The position numbers and the translations under genes are program-made. A DNA stretch of 17,208 nucleotides from Chloroflexota bacterium (GTDB lineage Bacteria; Chloroflexota; Anaerolineae; B4-G1; SLSP01). Location: assembly GCA_022707665.1 (NCBI GenBank), contig JAKJAE010000022.1:1-17208 (forward strand). The letters run 5' to 3'. A model generated the notes under the pieces. The model did not search any database and was not told where the DNA came from. It saw only the letters and a program-made list of their open reading frames with translations. Of this stretch, positions 3,847 to 11,020 are shown in pieces. The stretch's first letter is position 1, and each line of letters opens with the position of its first letter.

Positions 3847-4914
3847 TCAGACGGTTACGTCGTCGCACGCGCAATTCTCTCCGCCGGCAATCTCATCGAG
3901 GAGCTTTACCACCAGCGCCGTCCAGCCAGTCTGATAGCAGCGATCGTATTTGCGCAGCGACTCGATGAGAAGATGGTTGATGGGGAACCAGATGGGTCCA
4001 CGCCAGTTTGAGTTGCCCCCAAACAGGTTGCTGCGCGACTCGCCCGGTTCGTAGCCCACTGAGTACCCCACGCCATCCGCATAGAAAGTGTAGGGATGGT
4101 CCTCGTGGTACCGCGATAGCGATCGCACGCCGAACGGCGACAGGAACTCGTTGTCGTCGAGCACACGTTGGAGCACCCGAACGAGTTGGTCCCGGTAGGG
4201 CAAGGCAAAGAGCAACTGCCCGTCGTCCCCGGGGTTGCTCAGGGCTGAGCCGTTGGCTACCAGGTGAGGTCGATGCACGCGCAGCCAGTCAACGCGCCGC
4301 TTGAAGTCTGGCAATCGTTCGACCATCGAGCCGTCGATCACCTCAACGGCGTACAACGGCGTGAGGCCCACCTTGGATCGAACCTTCATCGGCACGACAT
4401 CCCCGCCGGGCATATGGAGCACGTCGTAGTAAAAGCCGTCGCCCTCATCCCATATGCCAGCCTCGTGGTGGCCGCCCTGGCCCAGGTGCGCTAATGCATA
4501 GGAGATGTAGACAAAATGCTCGTAGAACTTGCTGGCGACGCTCTCGTACGCTGGGTTCTCCTGAGCCAACTCGATGGCGATCCTGAGCATATTGTGATGG
4601 TTCCCCTCCTCATTCGCCACACCAAACAGGCGTTCCTTGAGAAAAGGATCTCGCTCATTCCAGAAGGCAACGGCCAGGCACAGATTCTGAAACTGGTTGC
4701 ACACACCGCCGATGCCGTCTTCGCCCCAACGATAGGCACGGCTGCGCGCATGGTCGTGGGGAAAGTAGCGCCACGGGTCACGGACGGCGCTATAGTCTTC
4801 TCGAACAGTGCCCCAGGCGCGATCAGCAAGGTAAGGACCCCAGTGCCGCCATCTGGACCGCGGGTCGCGCGCCTCGGTGAGCCTGCGCTGTTCCGCCGTC
4901 TTCGGGAAGTCCAT
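3847..4914 (-). CDS. GH63-type glucosidase remnant with two in-frame internal deletions
   Basis: 355 residues, whereas the bacterial GH63-like glucosidases it matches are usually about 850-900. Residues 1-106 match the family N-terminus (HWGPYLADRAWGTVREDYS, HDHARSRAYRWGEDG, DPFLKERLFG, EGNH). Residue 108 onward then jumps directly to the C-terminal helical domain (NMLRIAIELAQENPAYE, GIWDEGDGFYYDVL, KVRSKVGLTPLYAVE, GGNSNWRGPIWFPINHLLIE). A second jump near residues 325-326 goes from ESLRKYDR to YQTGWTALVVKLL, skipping the block that normally contains the EYFHGDNG segment. From memory of the family, both presumed catalytic carboxylates lie in the missing blocks, so glycosidase activity is unlikely. 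The frame stays open throughout. AGGA (4924-4927, minus strand) nine bases before the ATG supports the start. It could be a decaying gene, a repurposed fragment or an assembly artefact. Confidence 0.75.
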   Translation of the reverse strand: MDFPKTAEQRRLTEARDPRSRWRHWGPYLADRAWGTVREDYSAVRDPWRYFPHDHARSRAYRWGEDGIGGVCNQFQNLCLAVAFWNERDPFLKERLFGVANEEGNHHNMLRIAIELAQENPAYESVASKFYEHFVYISYALAHLGQGGHHEAGIWDEGDGFYYDVLHMPGGDVVPMKVRSKVGLTPLYAVEVIDGSMVERLPDFKRRVDWLRVHRPHLVANGSALSNPGDDGQLLFALPYRDQLVRVLQRVLDDNEFLSPFGVRSLSRYHEDHPYTFYADGVGYSVGYEPGESRSNLFGGNSNWRGPIWFPINHLLIESLRKYDRCYQTGWTALVVKLLDEIAGGENCACDDVTV

Positions 4915-4935: not shown

Positions 4936-4964
4936 TTGACTTTTGGCATAGTTTGTGCTAGAGT
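4936..4964 (+). promoter_or_regulatory. Sigma70-type promoter for the leader ORF and TCA operon
   Basis: TTGACT (4936-4941) is followed after 17 bases by TAGAGT (4959-4964). Five of six bases match the -35 consensus and four of six the -10 consensus, with ideal spacing. Transcription would start near 4971, leaving only about 8 bases before the leader ORF's ATG at 4980. No comparable promoter was seen between the downstream terminator and citrate synthase, so the TCA genes probably depend on this promoter. Confidence 0.65.
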
Positions 4965-4979
4965 TTACCTAATAGTATC

Positions 4980-5081
4980 ATGGTATCCGAGACGAACGAG
5001 ACGATGTCCTTGCAGGCTTACCGACAGCAGATCCAGCCTCAGCCTAGGCCACCCTTCACACGGGGCGGTTGCTGCTGTTGA
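4980..5081 (+). CDS. Putative Cys-Cys-Cys leader peptide (33 codons)
   Basis: A 33-codon ORF starts with ATG about 8 bases from the predicted transcript start and ends with the codons TGC TGC TGT TGA (5070-5081), giving a C-terminus TRGGCCC. No Shine-Dalgarno sequence precedes the ATG, so initiation would be leaderless or nearly so; an in-frame ATG at 5004 is an alternative. The peptide is polar and rich in Gln, Pro and Arg, with no membrane segment. It sits between a promoter and an intrinsic terminator, 112 bases before citrate synthase. This is the layout of amino-acid attenuation leaders. Short ORFs with consecutive Cys codons are known as cysteine-responsive attenuators in mycobacteria. 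Coding status here is inferred from position and ending. A metal- or thiol-binding micropeptide is an alternative. Confidence 0.55.
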   Translation: MVSETNETMSLQAYRQQIQPQPRPPFTRGGCCC

Positions 5082-5106
5082 TGTAGCCCGAGATAGTCCA
5101 GACCAG

Positions 5107-5135
5107 CCAGCCTACCCCAAGTAGGCTGGTTTTTT
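5107..5135 (+). terminator. Intrinsic terminator/attenuator upstream of citrate synthase
   Basis: CCAGCCTAC (5107-5115) and GTAGGCTGG (5121-5129) form a perfect 9-bp stem with a 5-base loop. Six T's (5130-5135), then G and four more T's, follow directly. It lies 25 bases after the stop of the Cys-rich leader ORF and 58 bases before citrate synthase, so the operon must be read through it. Two partial copies of the left arm occur in the leader, CCAGCCT (5033-5039) and CAGCCTA (5040-5046), and could pair with the right arm instead. Confidence 0.85.
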
Positions 5136-5193
5136 GTTTTCTTGGAGGGGTGTGAGCATCGGAATCGCAAAGGCTTGATGAGGGAGGAGGAAG

Positions 5194-6435
5194 ATGAGGA
5201 TGACAACACCAGCGCACGCAGATACGATGGAGGCAGACACGGCCCGACTACGGGAGATGGATGCGCGGGCAGCGGTAATCGAGAGTACCTCGCGCGGTAG
5301 TGACGGTGGGCAGCCGACCTACGAAGGGCTCTCCGGCGTCGTCATCAGTGCCAGCGCGATCTGTGACGTGAACGGCGAGCGTGGTACGCTGAGCTACCGA
5401 GGCTACGACATCGGTGAGCTGGCTTGTCGCGCGACATTCGAGGAGACCGCTCATCTGCTGTGGCATGGCGACTTGCCCAGCCGCCAGGAGCTCGACAGCC
5501 TTACCGCCAGGCTCACTGCAGAGCGCGAACTCAACGGGGCAGCCGACCTCATTCTTTCAGCCCTCCCTACCCACGTCGAGCCAATGGATGCGCTGCGAAC
5601 AGCGGTGTCATCCCTCACCTGCAATGGGACCAATGGTCAGGACCCGGGTTCCATGCAGGAGGACCAGGCAATCTGCCTGGTCGCCAAGTTCCCCACGATC
5701 GTTGCGCGCTTCTACCGCCGCAGGCATTCCCTGCCACCCATCGCCCCGCGCCCGGACCTGAGCCACGCAGCGAACTTCCTGTATATGGTGCAGGGGCACG
5801 AACCCACAACACTGCAGGCCCAGACGATGGACCTGGCCATGCTGCTCATGGCCGAGCACGGTTTCAATGCTTCTACCTTCGCCGCTCGGGTAACAGCCGC
5901 AACGCTCTCAGATATGTACGCCGCAGTGACCTCAGCAGTGGGAACGCTCAAGGGTCCCCTGCATGGCGGCGCCAACGAGCAGGCCATGCGGATGATGCTC
6001 GAGATCGGAGAAGTCGCCAACGTGGCGCCCTACATCGATGATGCCCTGGCGCGCAAGCAGCGCATTATGGGGTTCGGCCATCGCGTGTACCGCCACTCTG
6101 CTGACCCACGCGCCGCATATCTGCGTGCCAGTCTGTTCGACCTGTGCGCTGAGTCGGGCGACTTCCATTTCTACGAACTGGCGACGACCATTGCCGAGGT
6201 CGTCCATGCCAAGAAGGGTCTCTACCCCAATGTGGACTTCTATGCGGCGCCCGTGCTCTATCTGCTGGGCATTCCGCTAGAGCTTTTCGTCACCGTGTTT
6301 GCAGTCAGCCGGGTGCCGGGATGGACCGCCCACGTGATGGAGCAGTATGCGAACAACAAGCTGATCCGCCCGCTGTCAACCTATGTCGGACCCGAAAACC
6401 GTGTATACTGCCCCATCGACGATCGGGGACACTAG
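5194..6435 (+). CDS. gltA: Citrate synthase
   Basis: 413 residues. It condenses acetyl-CoA and oxaloacetate to citrate, the entry step of the TCA cycle. The catalytic triad is visible: H257 in GPLHGGANE, H296 in GFGHRVYRH and D348 in NVDFYAAP. The citrate synthase N-terminal pattern GTLSYRGYDIGELA is also present. It carries about 40 residues more at the N-terminus than compact bacterial forms. The purine-rich ribosome site AGGGAGGAGG (5181-5190) lies only 3 bases before the ATG at 5194. The in-frame ATG at 5200, 9 bases after the site, is an equally good start and would remove two residues. It is first in a three-gene operon: the aconitase ribosome site overlaps this gene's stop. The terminator at 5107-5135 lies in its leader, so expression is probably controlled by read-through. 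Confidence 0.95.
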   Translation: MRMTTPAHADTMEADTARLREMDARAAVIESTSRGSDGGQPTYEGLSGVVISASAICDVNGERGTLSYRGYDIGELACRATFEETAHLLWHGDLPSRQELDSLTARLTAERELNGAADLILSALPTHVEPMDALRTAVSSLTCNGTNGQDPGSMQEDQAICLVAKFPTIVARFYRRRHSLPPIAPRPDLSHAANFLYMVQGHEPTTLQAQTMDLAMLLMAEHGFNASTFAARVTAATLSDMYAAVTSAVGTLKGPLHGGANEQAMRMMLEIGEVANVAPYIDDALARKQRIMGFGHRVYRHSADPRAAYLRASLFDLCAESGDFHFYELATTIAEVVHAKKGLYPNVDFYAAPVLYLLGIPLELFVTVFAVSRVPGWTAHVMEQYANNKLIRPLSTYVGPENRVYCPIDDRGH

Positions 6436-6444
6436 GAGGAACGC

Positions 6445-8379
6445 ATGGGCTATACGCTGGCCGAGAAGATCATCGCCGAGCACCTGGTCGAAGGTGAGAT
6501 GGTGCCCGGATCTGAGATCGGCATCCGCATCGACCACACGCTGACACAGGACGCCACGGGTACGATGGCGTGGCTGGAGTTCGAGGCTATGGGCATCGAC
6601 CGCGTCCGTACCGAGCGCGCCATCAGCTATGTAGATCACAATATGCTTCAGGCCGACTTCCGCAACGCCGATGACCACCGATACCTGCAGACGGCGGCGG
6701 CCCGCTATGGCGCCTTCTTCTCCCGACCTGGCAACGGCATCTGCCACCAGGTTCAATCGGAGCGCTTCAGCATACCAGGGAAGACGCTCCTCGGGGCCGA
6801 TAGCCACACGCCGAACTCGGGCGGCCTCGGCGTACTCGCAATCGGGTCCGGTGGACTCGACGTCGCCGTTGCTATGGGCGGCGGGCTCTTCTATACAGCG
6901 ATGCCGTCGATCCTGGGTGTGCGGTTGACGGGGGCTCTGGGGCCATGGGTCACGGCCAAGGACGTGATCCTCGAATTGCTCCGACGGTTGAGCGTCAAAG
7001 GCGGCCTGGGCAAGATCATCGAGTACTTTGGCCCCGGCCTGGCGAGCCTCACTGTCGACCAGCGGACGACGATCTGCAACATGGGCGCCGAGCTGGGCGC
7101 TACGACGTCGATCTTCCCCAGTGATGACCAGACGCGACGATACCTCGCAGCACAGGGTCGTCCGGAGGACTGGATACCACTGAGCGCAGACCCCGATGCA
7201 ACCTACGCACAGGTCGTCGAGATCGACCTCGCGGCCCTTGAACCACTCGTGGCGAAGCCTTCGATGCCCGACAATGTCGTGCCTATCACAGAGGTCGCTG
7301 GACAGCCGGTTGCGCAGGTGTGTGTTGGCTCGTGCGTGAACTCGTCCTTTGAGGACCTGATGACCGTAGCCGCGATACTGAAGGGCAAGCAGGTTCACCC
7401 AAGCGTGAGCATGACCATCACCCCTGGGAGCAAGCAGGTCTTCACGATGGTCGCAGAGAACGGTGCACTCGCCGACATGATCGCTGCCGGCGTGCGCGTT
7501 CTGGAGGCCGCGTGCGGCCCATGCCTGGGCATTGGTCAAGCCCCGGCAACCGGCGTGGCATCCATGCGCTCGATGAACCGCAACTTCAAGGGTCGCAGCG
7601 GCACAGCGGATGACAGCGTCTACCTTGCCAGTCCGGAGTCCTGCGCCGCCGCGGCGTTGACCGGCGTCATCACCGATCCACGGACATTGGGCCCCCCCCC
7701 CATCGTCGCAGCCCCACACGCCTATCCTACGAACGACACGATGATGATCGCACCGCTGCCGCCGGCGGAAGCCGCGCAGGTCGAGATTCTGCGCGGCCCG
7801 AACATCAAGCCGGTCCCCATCGGCAAGCCGATGGCCGCGACGATGTCGGGTCGAGTGCTGATCAAGGTAGGAGACAACGTCACCACCGACCACATCCTTC
7901 CCGCAGGGGCCTCCATACTCCCCCTACGCTCGAATATTCCTGCCATCTCAGAGTTCACGTTCCAGCGCGTCGATCCCGACTTCGTAAGTCGTGCTAAGGA
8001 ATGGGGCGGCGGTCTGATCGTCGGTGGCAGCAACTACGGGCAGGGCTCGAGCCGTGAGCACGCTGCCCTATCGCCGATGTACCTGGGCGTGCGCGCCGTT
8101 ATTGCCAAGTCCTTCGCCCGCATCCACTACGCCAACTTGATCAACAACGGCATCTTGCCGCTCACGTTCGATGCACCATCCGACTACGACACGCTGGATC
8201 TCGGCGATGAGTTGGTGTTTGCTGACGTCCGTATTGCGCTGCAGAAGAACGAACCCATCACCGTCGATAACCGGACCAAAGGCTTGCGCTACACGTTCCA
8301 TCCGCAGTTCAGCGACCGCGAGCTCGCCTACCTGTTGGCAGGCGGTCTGCTCAACCATACGCGTGGCATCGGAGCCTGA
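6445..8379 (+). CDS. acn: Aconitate hydratase (aconitase)
   Basis: 644 residues. It isomerises citrate to isocitrate via a [4Fe-4S] cluster. The three cluster ligands are visible as C297 in VGSCVNSS and C357/C360 in CGPCLG. The substrate-site signature [20 protein letters not shown] is near residues 115-134. The C-terminal swivel domain carries [15 protein letters not shown] (about 530-544). The ~640-residue size fits the compact mitochondrial-like bacterial aconitases rather than the ~900-residue AcnA or AcnB. The ribosome site AGGAGGA (6434-6440) overlaps the TAG of citrate synthase, suggesting translational coupling. A run of ten C's (7692-7701) encodes Pro residues near 416-419, between the catalytic core and the swivel domain. 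The requirement for Fe-S assembly, and hence cysteine, may be relevant to the Cys-codon leader upstream; that link is inference. Confidence 0.95.
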
Positions 8380-8383
8380 ACTG

Positions 8384-9415
8384 ATGGGACAGACAAGTTA
8401 CCACGTCACGCTCATTCCCGGCGATGGCATCGGCCCAGAAGTCATCGAAGCCAGCCGCAAAGTCCTTGAGGCCACGGGGGTACGCTTCGATTGGGACGTC
8501 CAACACGCAGGGGCCGCCGTCGCCGAGCGCGAGGGCACCCCACTGCCCGAGGCAGTCCTGGACTCGATCCGTGCCAACGGCGTCGCGCTCAAAGGGCCAG
8601 TGACCACACCGATTGGTTCGGGGTTTCGCAGCGTCAACGTTGGCATCCGCAAGGCGCTGGACCTCTACGCAAACGTCCGCCCAGCACTCACGTTGCCCGG
8701 CCTACCCGGGGTGCGTTCTGACGTCGATCTCATCGTGGTGCGAGAGAACACTGAAGGCCTCTACGTGGGCATCGAGCACGAAGTGATCCCCGACGTGGCT
8801 GCCGAGGCCACCAGGATCATCACCCGCCGGGCGTCAGAGCGGGTGGTACGTTACGCCTTCGAGTACGCCCGACGCAACGGACGGCGTGAGGTCACCGCCG
8901 TACACAAGGCGAACATCCTCAAGATCACCGACGGTCTCTTCCTCAAGGTTGCCCGCGAGGTGGCGGCAACGTATCCCGACATTGCCTACCGCGAGATGAT
9001 CATCGACGCTATGTGCATGCAGCTAGTCGTTCAGCCCGAGGCCTATGACGTGCTCGTGCTGACAAACCTATTCGGTGACATCGTCAGCGACTTGTGCGCG
9101 GGCCTTGTGGGCGGGCTTGGGGTTGCACCCGGGGCCAACATCGGCGAGACCCTGGCGGTCTTTGAGCCTGTGCACGGATCAGCTCCCGACATAGCCGGCA
9201 AGGACGTCGCCAACCCCACGGCGACGATCCTGACGGGTGCACTCATGCTGAGACACCTGGGCGAGCGCGAAGCAGCAGCACGCGTTGAGGCAGCCGTCGC
9301 GGCAGTCGCCAGAGAGGGGCGCGCCACCACAGCGGATCTCAGGAGCTGCCAGCCCAATGCCAGACTGATAGGCACACAGGCGATGGCCGACGAGATCATA
9401 CGGCATCTCAGTTAG
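8384..9415 (+). CDS. icd: NAD-type isocitrate dehydrogenase
   Basis: 343 residues of the isocitrate/isopropylmalate dehydrogenase family. It oxidatively decarboxylates isocitrate to 2-oxoglutarate. Visible features are [11 protein letters not shown] (10-20), a substrate loop [18 protein letters not shown] (83-100) with S83, N85, R89 and R99 typical of isocitrate rather than isopropylmalate enzymes, ENTEGLYVG (121-129), the catalytic lysine K175, and metal ligands D232 and D236 in [25 protein letters not shown] (264-278) has Asp where NADP enzymes have Lys/Tyr-type residues, indicating NAD. The frame is open upstream within acn, but the ATG at 8384, with GGAG (8371-8374) before it and 4 bases after the acn stop, is the likely start. 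It follows gltA and acn directly and ends the operon. Isopropylmalate or homoisocitrate dehydrogenase is possible but less likely in this context. Confidence 0.92.
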
Positions 9416-9430
9416 CCGGCTACCTCATCC

Positions 9431-9474
9431 ACGATGGGCCGGAACGCTGCCAGGGCAGCGTTTCGGCCCATCGT
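9431..9474 (+). terminator. Long hairpin terminator after the TCA operon
   Basis: ACGATGGGCCG (9431-9441) pairs with CGGCCCATCGT (9464-9474), and AACGCTGCC (9443-9451) pairs with GGCAGCGTT (9454-9462), joined by a G-T wobble. This gives an almost continuous stem of about 20 bp. The tail GTTTCC is only weakly T-rich. It begins 15 bases after the isocitrate dehydrogenase stop and immediately precedes the guaB promoter. Confidence 0.75.
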
Positions 9475-9480
9475 GTTTCC

Positions 9481-9508
9481 TGGACGTCTGGGCATTGCCG
9501 CCTACAAT
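9481..9508 (+). promoter_or_regulatory. Putative guaB promoter
   Basis: TGGACG (9481-9486) and TACAAT (9503-9508) are separated by 16 bases. The -10 matches five of six consensus bases and the -35 four of six. It lies directly after the upstream terminator and about 33 bases before the IMP dehydrogenase start, so guaB appears independently transcribed. Confidence 0.5.
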
Positions 9509-9541
9509 GGTTCGAATAGTCATACCCAGGGAGGAGCTCCA

Positions 9542-11020
9542 ATGCAAGATGATGCGCTGTTCGTCACAGGTGAAGCGCTCACGTTCGATGACGTTCTGAT
9601 TGTGCCTGGCTACTCAGACGTGTTGCCCGGTGACACTGACATTAGCACTCAGCTCACCGACAAGATCCGGCTGGCGATACCCATCATATCGGCAGCGATG
9701 GACACCGTGACGGAATCGTCGATGGCGATCGCACTCGCGCGCGAAGGTGGTATGGGCATCATCCACCGCAATATGTCACCCGAAGACCAGGCAGGCGAAG
9801 TGGCCAAAGTCAAGCGGTCGCAGTCGGGCATGATCGTCGACCCTATCACGCTTCCCCCAACAGCAACACTGCACGATGCAGAAAAGATCATGTCGACGTA
9901 TCACATCAGCGGGGTGCCTATCACAGCAGAGGGCAACCGCCTCGTCGGCATTCTGACCAACCGCGACTTCCGCTTCGTCGATCTGGAAGACTACGATCAC
10001 CCGGTCACCGAGTTCATGACCTCGGAGCACATCGTGTCCGCGCCCGTCAACATCAGCCTTGAAGATGCCAAGCGACTGCTGCACCAACACCGGATCGAAA
10101 AGCTGGTGCTGGTCGATGAGAACAACATTCTGAAAGGCCTGATCACGGTCAAGGACATCCAGAAGGCCCGGGACTTCCCCAATGCCACGTCCGATGCCCA
10201 GGGACGACTGGTCGTGGGCGCAGCGGTCGGCGTCGGCCAAGACCTGGAACATCGAGTCGAGCTGATGGTCGCAGCGGGTCTGGATCTGGTGGCCATCGAC
10301 ACTGCCCATGGTCACTCGGCTGGTGTGATACAGGCGATACAGCGCATTCGCGAAGTCACGCCCGACATTGTAGTCATGGCAGGAAACGTAGTGACAGCCG
10401 AGGGCACGCTTGATCTGATCAAAGCTGGTGCGGATGTGGTGAAAGTGGGCGTGGGCGCTGGATCGATCTGCACCACCCGTATCGTGGCTGGCGCTGGAAT
10501 GCCGCAGATGAGTGCGATCCACGCCTGTGCCAGGGCCGCCGCTGCCCATGGAATCCCGATCGTCGCCGACGGAGGCATCAAGTTCAGCGGCGACATCGTG
10601 AAGGCCATTGCGGGCGGGGCCCACGTTGTGATGCTGGGCAGTATGCTTGCCGGTATGGACGAATCTCCCGGCGATGTGGTCTTCTACGACGGGCGCCGGT
10701 TCAAGGAATACCGTGGTATGGGGAGCATCGGTGCCATGCGAGGTTACGGCCGAGATCGCTACGGCACCGGCCAGGGGCGTAGCGGTAAGACAGTGCCCGA
10801 GGGGGTGGAGGCAAGGGTACCCTACAAGGGCGCCCTTCACGAGTACATCTACCAGCTCGTTGGCGGCATCCGATCGGGATTAGGTTACGCCGGCGCGGCA
10901 GATTTGGCAGACCTCCGGGCCAAAGCCCGGTTCGTTCGCATCACGAACGCGGGCCTGATCGAGAGTCACCCGCACAATGTCACCATCACACAGGAACCGC
11001 CGAACTACCAGGTGCAATAG
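9542..11020 (+). CDS. guaB: Inosine-5'-monophosphate dehydrogenase
   Basis: 492 residues. It oxidises IMP to XMP with NAD, the committed step of guanine nucleotide synthesis. The TIM-barrel N-terminus starts [16 protein letters not shown] (12-27). A two-CBS (Bateman) regulatory insert occupies about 97-208, with HISGVPI (121-127) and [13 protein letters not shown] (183-195). The catalytic cysteine is C310 in GAGSICTTR. The mobile flap is [19 protein letters not shown] (392-410), with R406/Y407 in the usual RY position, followed by [13 protein letters not shown]. The frame is open 36 codons further upstream, but that stretch lies inside the terminator and promoter. AGGGAGGAG (9528-9536) before the ATG at 9542 supports the chosen start, and the resulting length is normal for the family. 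Neighbouring genes are functionally unrelated. Confidence 0.96.

Follow-up and report, generated by a model that had tools for sequence, protein, structure and literature searches.

Why should a citrate synthase gene lie behind a transcription terminator that is itself preceded by a short open reading frame (ORF)? The question is raised by a 17,208-nucleotide (nt) stretch of an uncultured Chloroflexota bacterium (class Anaerolineae; contig JAKJAE010000022.1 of assembly GCA_022707665.1), hereafter the window, for which an initial annotation, made from the letters alone, proposed a cysteine-responsive attenuator over citrate synthase, aconitase and isocitrate dehydrogenase. Comparison with related genomes leads us to regard it as probable that the element is a ribosome-mediated transcription attenuator of the 1-2-3-4 type, sensing the charging of glutamate-family transfer RNAs (tRNAs) through glutamine (Gln), proline (Pro) and arginine (Arg) codons rather than through cysteine (Cys). 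The promoter, the ORF, the terminator, a shared codon block, family-wide pairing of RNA segments 2 and 3 and a matching codon logic at other genes are supported by this comparison; the transcript start, translation, stalling, read-through and the dominant amino acid among Gln, Pro and Arg are what we infer.

Anatomy of the leader

Two covariance models of the layout are used below, R1 (from seven leaders) and R2 (from 22 leaders), and leaders lying directly 5' of citrate synthase are called linked leaders. The features of the locus are as follows.

4936-4964, + strand: sigma-70-like promoter TTGACT-17-TAGAGT (motif scan; aligned -35/-10 pair in three genus relatives with the leader)
5004-5081, + strand: leader peptide ORF, probably MSLQAYRQQIQPQPRPPFTRGGCCC (alignment with relatives; an in-frame ATG also at 4980)
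5022-5054, + strand: codon block RQQIQPQPRPP, proposed Gln/Pro/Arg stall site (frame control, composition)
5034-5044, + strand, within the codon block: segment 1, CAGCCTCAGCC (the R1 consensus has a helix of segments 1 and 2)
5062-5074, + strand: segment 2, proposed antiterminator strand, GGGGCGGTTGCTG (pairing tests)
5070-5081, + strand: Cys-Cys-Cys-stop (5070-5072 TGC; in the nearest relative, G004, the stop TGA stands there)
5104-5118, + strand: segment 3, 5' arm of the terminator, CAGCCAGCCTACCCC (folding and pairing tests)
5105-5131, + strand: intrinsic terminator, a stem-loop of segments 3 and 4 followed by a run of T (terminator scan; equivalents in six other linked leaders)

The promoter, the three Cys codons directly before the stop (TGC TGC TGT TGA) and the terminator had all been reported by the initial annotation and were found again here, the stem-loop beginning 23 nt 3' of the leader stop. 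The ORF that it described (4980-5081) is likewise present, but the start it gave, near the 5' end of the transcript, is probably not the one in use: the ATG at 4980 is near the predicted transcript start, and the ATGs of relatives align with the next in-frame ATG, at 5004, which makes MSLQAYRQQIQPQPRPPFTRGGCCC the probable peptide and a near-leaderless ORF less likely. An in-frame ATG lies 12-30 nt before the codon block in all seven linked leaders.

In the scanned 1 kilobase there are two promoter-like sites against 0.2 expected in shuffles (the second, a 9/12 match at 5200-5228, falls inside the citrate synthase gene) and one terminator-like site against 0.5 expected, each count being modest alone with respect to chance. 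The anatomy is convincing because promoter, leader ORF and terminator co-occur 5' of the citrate synthase of relatives, with stem-loops in the equivalent position in six of six other linked leaders. Since the gene upstream of the leader (3847-4914) is oriented away from it, the terminator sits on a transcript starting near 4970, a start that we place from the position of the promoter. No Rfam family, whether riboswitch, T-box or other, matched the window at its gathering score; two sub-threshold matches lie near the leader (E 1.5 and 8.3).

Leaders upstream of citrate synthase in related genomes

Sixty genomes, the window's own included, were searched for citrate synthase; 35 gave some match, and in 15, again with the window's own, the match was close (best E no higher than 7e-75). 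For each close citrate synthase 500 nt upstream were read, or less at contig ends (356 nt in G035, 295 nt in G021). A leader ORF and terminator lie directly 5' of the gene in seven of the 15 genomes, namely that of the window (G000), three others of its genus (G001, G002, G004), two of the same family (G017, G019) and one of the same order (G029); the fifth member of the genus, G003, gave no citrate synthase match.

The predicted peptides are MSLQAYRQQIQPQPRPPFTRGGCCC in the window, MSIHGLRQPIQPRPPTTWGG in G004, MLIVRINRQPNKPQPLPCALRRRLMRFG in G002, MRESRQPKQPQPKPPYPWGRLMPSG in G001, MVVPHPPVNPQERPLKPRPSPGAGG in G029, MKTHNIVLIPAQQPKPSTLGRAG in G017 and MITHIILALAQQPQPYTLWRAG in G019, and a Gln/Pro/Arg block is common to all seven. 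In 12-codon blocks positioned by eye, these three amino acids take up 52 of the 84 codons in the leader frame, against 15/84 and 10/84 in the other two frames, and frame +2 of the block DNA is interrupted by a stop in six of the seven leaders. Over the whole length of the linked leaders they account for 68 of 168 codons, as compared with 14.6% in nine window ORFs (binomial p 3.5e-16, a value that is overstated, the leaders being related).

RNA pairing and the proposed mechanism

Segment 2, which lies around the stop codon of the relatives, is able to pair with segment 3; CAGCC is repeated in segments 1 and 3, and a segment 1:2 helix is part of the R1 consensus. When segment 3 was exchanged among leaders, 31 of 33 leaders paired better in their own 2:3 combination than on average in the swapped ones (permutation p 5e-5, the smallest value that the test can give, both per leader and per nine clusters). 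The 33 were kept from 37, with argG_G043, glnA_G013, argC_G193 and argC_G242 dropped for a terminator or stop off the segment 2 position. Shuffling of segment 2 gave p<0.05 in three of eight citrate synthase leaders (mean z 1.6), counting a G021 leader at a contig end, its downstream gene unseen, which also entered the R2 training and the swap test and was dropped from the composition tests below. Throughout, leaders were found by models trained on part of the same set, and kinship among many of the leaders means that these are not tests on independent ones.

The predicted nascent folds of six citrate synthase leaders fit the model. With a ribosome at the stop, segment 3 is paired weakly or not at all (0 to -5 kcal/mol, six leaders), and with a ribosome stalled at the block it is held by upstream sequence, except in G029, where sequence 3' of the stop holds it.

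In the proposed mechanism, RNA polymerase would start near 4970 and a ribosome would initiate the leader ORF at ATG 5004. With Gln-, Pro- and Arg-tRNAs charged, the ribosome would reach the stop and mask segment 2, and the 3:4 terminator would form before citrate synthase. Low charging of the glutamate-family tRNAs would instead stall the ribosome in RQQIQPQPRPP and expose segment 2, which would pair with segment 3 while segment 4 is still untranscribed; the resulting read-through into citrate synthase, aconitase and isocitrate dehydrogenase would yield more 2-oxoglutarate, from which glutamate, glutamine, proline and arginine are made. The marks of an attenuator can be recognized here: end-product codons are conserved in relatives (in all seven linked leaders, with cognate codons at glnA, proS and argG/argC), a terminator stands between the leader ORF and the first structural gene, and across the leader set the swap test finds an antiterminator pairing that excludes the terminator. 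Comparison with relatives thus lends its backing to the initial suggestion that a leader peptide may attenuate the citrate synthase operon.

The same layout at other genes

R1 matches occur in 31 of 48 genomes of the order at E<=0.05, and R2 matches in 36 of the 48 at E<=0.01 and in 54 of 396 genomes of the class at E<=0.001; weak R2 matches include bare terminators. The window's own genome (73% complete) holds one such element by R1 and R2 together, and none of its six other exact CAGCCTMAGCC sites matches R1. Downstream of the leaders, profile hidden Markov model (HMM) scores above cut-off identify glnA, proS, argG, argC, LysX, acetolactate synthase, phosphoglycerate dehydrogenase and, in G001, a second gltX, while one carbamoyltransferase (ornithine/N-acetylornithine family) scored below cut-off. 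HMM checks covered one or more targets of every type named, and the remaining targets were judged by eye.

Leaders of amino acid genes are enriched in the cognate codon. Gln makes up 56 of 225 codons in glnA leaders against 36/577 in the rest (p 2e-12), Pro 33/123 in proS leaders against 82/679 (p 5e-5), and Arg 40/231 in argG and argC leaders together against 41/571 (p 3e-5). We lean slightly towards a wider reading, in which the Anaerolineae would possess a family of attenuators with one RNA layout and operon-fitted codons, and the citrate synthase version would read Gln, Pro and Arg, so that glutamate-family tRNA charging would set 2-oxoglutarate synthesis.

The models also led to other leaders. 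Five of them (L047, L049, L051, L053 and L054, ~1501-1619), from one genus of the order, combine a terminator with a conserved Pro-containing leader type, MDTYRLPSPPVPESQT, and precede a phosphoesterase-like frame. At L177 (G023:C15:10174-10295) a leader rich in Arg, Pro, glutamate and Gln codons, MRHNDPVFQPRPEQRPQPPHIWGGRGK, lies 5' of a periplasmic amino-acid-type binding protein, and L180 (G043:C70:7173-7284) is a weak R2 match (34 bits) 5' of a glutamate synthase-domain protein. Leaders with lysine and Arg codons lie 5' of LysX-type ATP-grasp ligases (L182, L189, L190, L193, L201). A leader rich in leucine, isoleucine and valine precedes acetolactate synthase, and a serine-containing one phosphoglycerate dehydrogenase (L202/L204); from these last, the layout may reach beyond the glutamate family.

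Weighing the evidence

A number of observations tell against an attenuator of this kind at citrate synthase. The linked leader is missing at eight of the 15 close citrate synthases (G021, G035, G013, G050, G051, G054, G056 and G057); G035 has a terminator-like hairpin without a Gln/Pro leader where its contig starts, and G021, close kin of G017 and G019, has citrate synthase-proB with no leader in the 295 nt upstream, while a leader much like theirs lies at the end of another G021 contig, its target beyond the contig. R2 found no match at glnA in the window's genus (four loci), at five of six gltX loci examined there (the exception being the second gltX copy of G001) or at 11 proB loci of the order, the three proB loci adjoining citrate synthase not being counted among these; in the window's genus, proB and the main gltX copies are thus, like glnA, without such a leader. 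Taken alone, the window's 2:3 pairing does not surpass that of shuffled sequence (p 0.17, or 0.22 with the aligned stop as anchor). The QP codons are in part imposed by the CAGCC pairing. The terminator, when fully transcribed, is the fold of lowest predicted energy in five of six leaders; the decision must therefore be kinetic, as in classic attenuators. Nor are citrate synthase leaders richer than the rest in Gln (18/168 against 74/634, p 0.68) or Arg (18/168 against 63/634, p 0.43), measured against a comparison set itself gathered by similarity and already rich in Gln, Pro and Arg; they are slightly richer in Pro (32/168 against 83/634, p 0.036). By this comparison the citrate synthase leaders are therefore mixed and not specific for a single amino acid.

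The initial proposal, in which a ribosome stalled at the three Cys codons would determine read-through into the operon, is in our judgement very improbable. Mycobacterial poly-Cys ORFs are Cys-responsive attenuators, according to the excerpted text of PMC9031893, and three consecutive Cys codons do precede the window's stop, but a Cys run is found in none of the six other linked leaders: the window has three Cys codons, G002 one and the other five leaders none, and Cys makes up 4/168 codons in citrate synthase leaders against 10/634 in the rest (p 0.33). In G004 GGGGCGGT is followed by TGA TGC TGT TGA and in the window by TGC TGC TGT TGA, the window's first Cys codon thus being one base away from the stop of its nearest relative and the remaining two falling at positions 3' of that stop. 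The ORF ends at the position of that stop in four of the seven leaders (G004, G029, G017, G019), and G001 and G002 pass the position in another frame; the window's TGC appears to be the derived state, and the Cys tail seems to be an addition of three codons particular to this lineage. The Cys-run-plus-stop pattern, TGYTGYTGYTRR, is at genome background (31 matches, 25 in the reversed control). The geometry is also unfavourable, since the Cys codons sit in and just after the antiterminator strand, and folding with a ribosome on the first of them predicts an unpaired segment 3 and an undisturbed terminator, as with a ribosome at the stop. The initial annotation had staked its reading on conservation of the Cys codons in related genomes; they are not conserved, and the codons that are shared are those for Gln, Pro and Arg. 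Control by Cys or iron-sulphur supply was rejected on these three grounds (codons unconserved, one base from a stop, ill placed), and the case illustrates how a single base change can produce a misleading codon run at the end of a leader.

Other alternatives accept more of the layout. The signal could be something other than charging, for example slow translation of Pro-rich stretches (elongation factor P status) or nascent-chain arrest near the stop; Pro-Pro or Pro-rich stretches occur in several leaders, small residues (GG, RAG) stand right before the stop in four of seven, and leader-ORF Pro codons are tied to regulation in other systems, as far as the excerpted sources go. We hold this to be unlikely, given that codon identity tracks the downstream gene over the leader set, as tRNA sensing predicts, and that the final glycine codon is accounted for by segment 2 pairing. 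It is less likely still that the QP codons arise as a side effect of base pairing through the CAGCC of segment 1 and that the leader is only a constitutive partial terminator. Such a reading draws on the occurrence of CAGCC in segments 1 and 3 and on the 1:2 helix of R1, yet one CAGCC would be enough, and the blocks hold extra in-frame Pro, Arg and Gln codons; the cognate codon runs of glnA and argG/argC leaders of the same layout, and cognate 2:3 pairing, also stand against it. We give hardly any credence to a main operon promoter 3' of the terminator that would make the leader irrelevant. In its favour is the 9/12 promoter-like match within the citrate synthase gene; against it, the gene at 3847-4914 diverges and leaves the terminator on the transcript from ~4936, and promoter, ORF and terminator recur jointly in relatives.

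The downstream operon

The genes behind the terminator are as follows.

5194-6435, + strand: citrate synthase (2-methylcitrate synthase/citrate synthase II subfamily; TIGR01800 above cut-off)
6445-8379, + strand: aconitate hydratase (NF005558 above cut-off)
8171-9415, + strand: isocitrate dehydrogenase family (best NF006529, 439 bits, below the cut-off of 510)
9434-11020, + strand: IMP dehydrogenase (TIGR01302 above cut-off)

Profile matches thus agree with the initial assignment of citrate synthase, aconitase and isocitrate dehydrogenase, the last below cut-off. The open frame of isocitrate dehydrogenase starts within aconitase and shows homology from about residue 76, its true start probably lying near 8380-8400. 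In G004 and G002 the leader-bearing citrate synthase is likewise followed by aconitase and isocitrate dehydrogenase; in G029 aconitase is next and then, by eye, isocitrate dehydrogenase, and in G001 aconitase follows up to the contig end. G017 has citrate synthase-proB-proA behind the leader, and G019 citrate synthase-proB and the start of a proA-like frame (by eye). From these contents, the leader heads operons of 2-oxoglutarate or proline synthesis.

IMP dehydrogenase, in the same orientation, follows the isocitrate dehydrogenase ORF at a distance of 18 nt. An IMP dehydrogenase-like frame, judged by eye, is also next in G004 and G002. This gene may belong to the same operon, in which case attenuation may reach guanosine monophosphate synthesis.

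Relation to known attenuators and implications

Mycobacterial poly-Cys leaderless ORFs were reportedly described by Canestrari et al. in 2020. The window resembles these (PMC9031893, in excerpt) in having a short ORF 5' of an operon with contiguous terminal Cys codons, but its Cys run is unconserved and ill placed for antitermination, and its aligned start lies away from the 5' end. With the enteric his, trp, leu, thr and ilv attenuators, as covered in the excerpted PMC9413887, it shares a pathway-codon ORF, alternative hairpins and a terminator before the first structural gene; it differs in its tricarboxylic acid (TCA) cycle target (citrate synthase with proB in two relatives), in the use of several glutamate-family codons and in belonging to the Chloroflexota. 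Proline codons figure in the excerpted description of the Salmonella mgtCBR leader (PMC3641672), a likeness by description only, with another target and another lineage. The Firmicutes histidine leaders (PMC2965389, PMC9413887, both in excerpt) likewise represent leader-peptide attenuation outside Proteobacteria and Actinobacteria, but with histidine as the single amino acid.

In the same excerpts, descriptions of leader-peptide attenuation mostly concern pathways of one amino acid, from Proteobacteria, Actinobacteria and a part of the Firmicutes (PMC2965389, PMC9413887). In the parts of the open-licence literature covered (including PMC4833913, PMC9413887, PMC9031893 and PMC2965389) there is no attenuation of citrate synthase, though an earlier report elsewhere is possible; no leader-peptide attenuator in Chloroflexota; and no precedent for mixed Gln/Pro/Arg leader codons, where again a report elsewhere is possible. 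The comparative survey of Lopatovskaya et al. (2010), cited in PMC4833913, might cover part of this ground. The mechanism would be a familiar one, in a lineage, at a target and with a mixture of codons for which the papers covered gave no parallel.

If this picture is correct, a segment of the TCA cycle would be run like an amino-acid biosynthetic operon, by ribosome-mediated attenuation. Attenuation seems here to reach central carbon flux through several amino acids read together, and the comparison provides a predicted set of attenuated genes. Leader-peptide attenuation looks like a general tool in this deep, mostly uncultured lineage.
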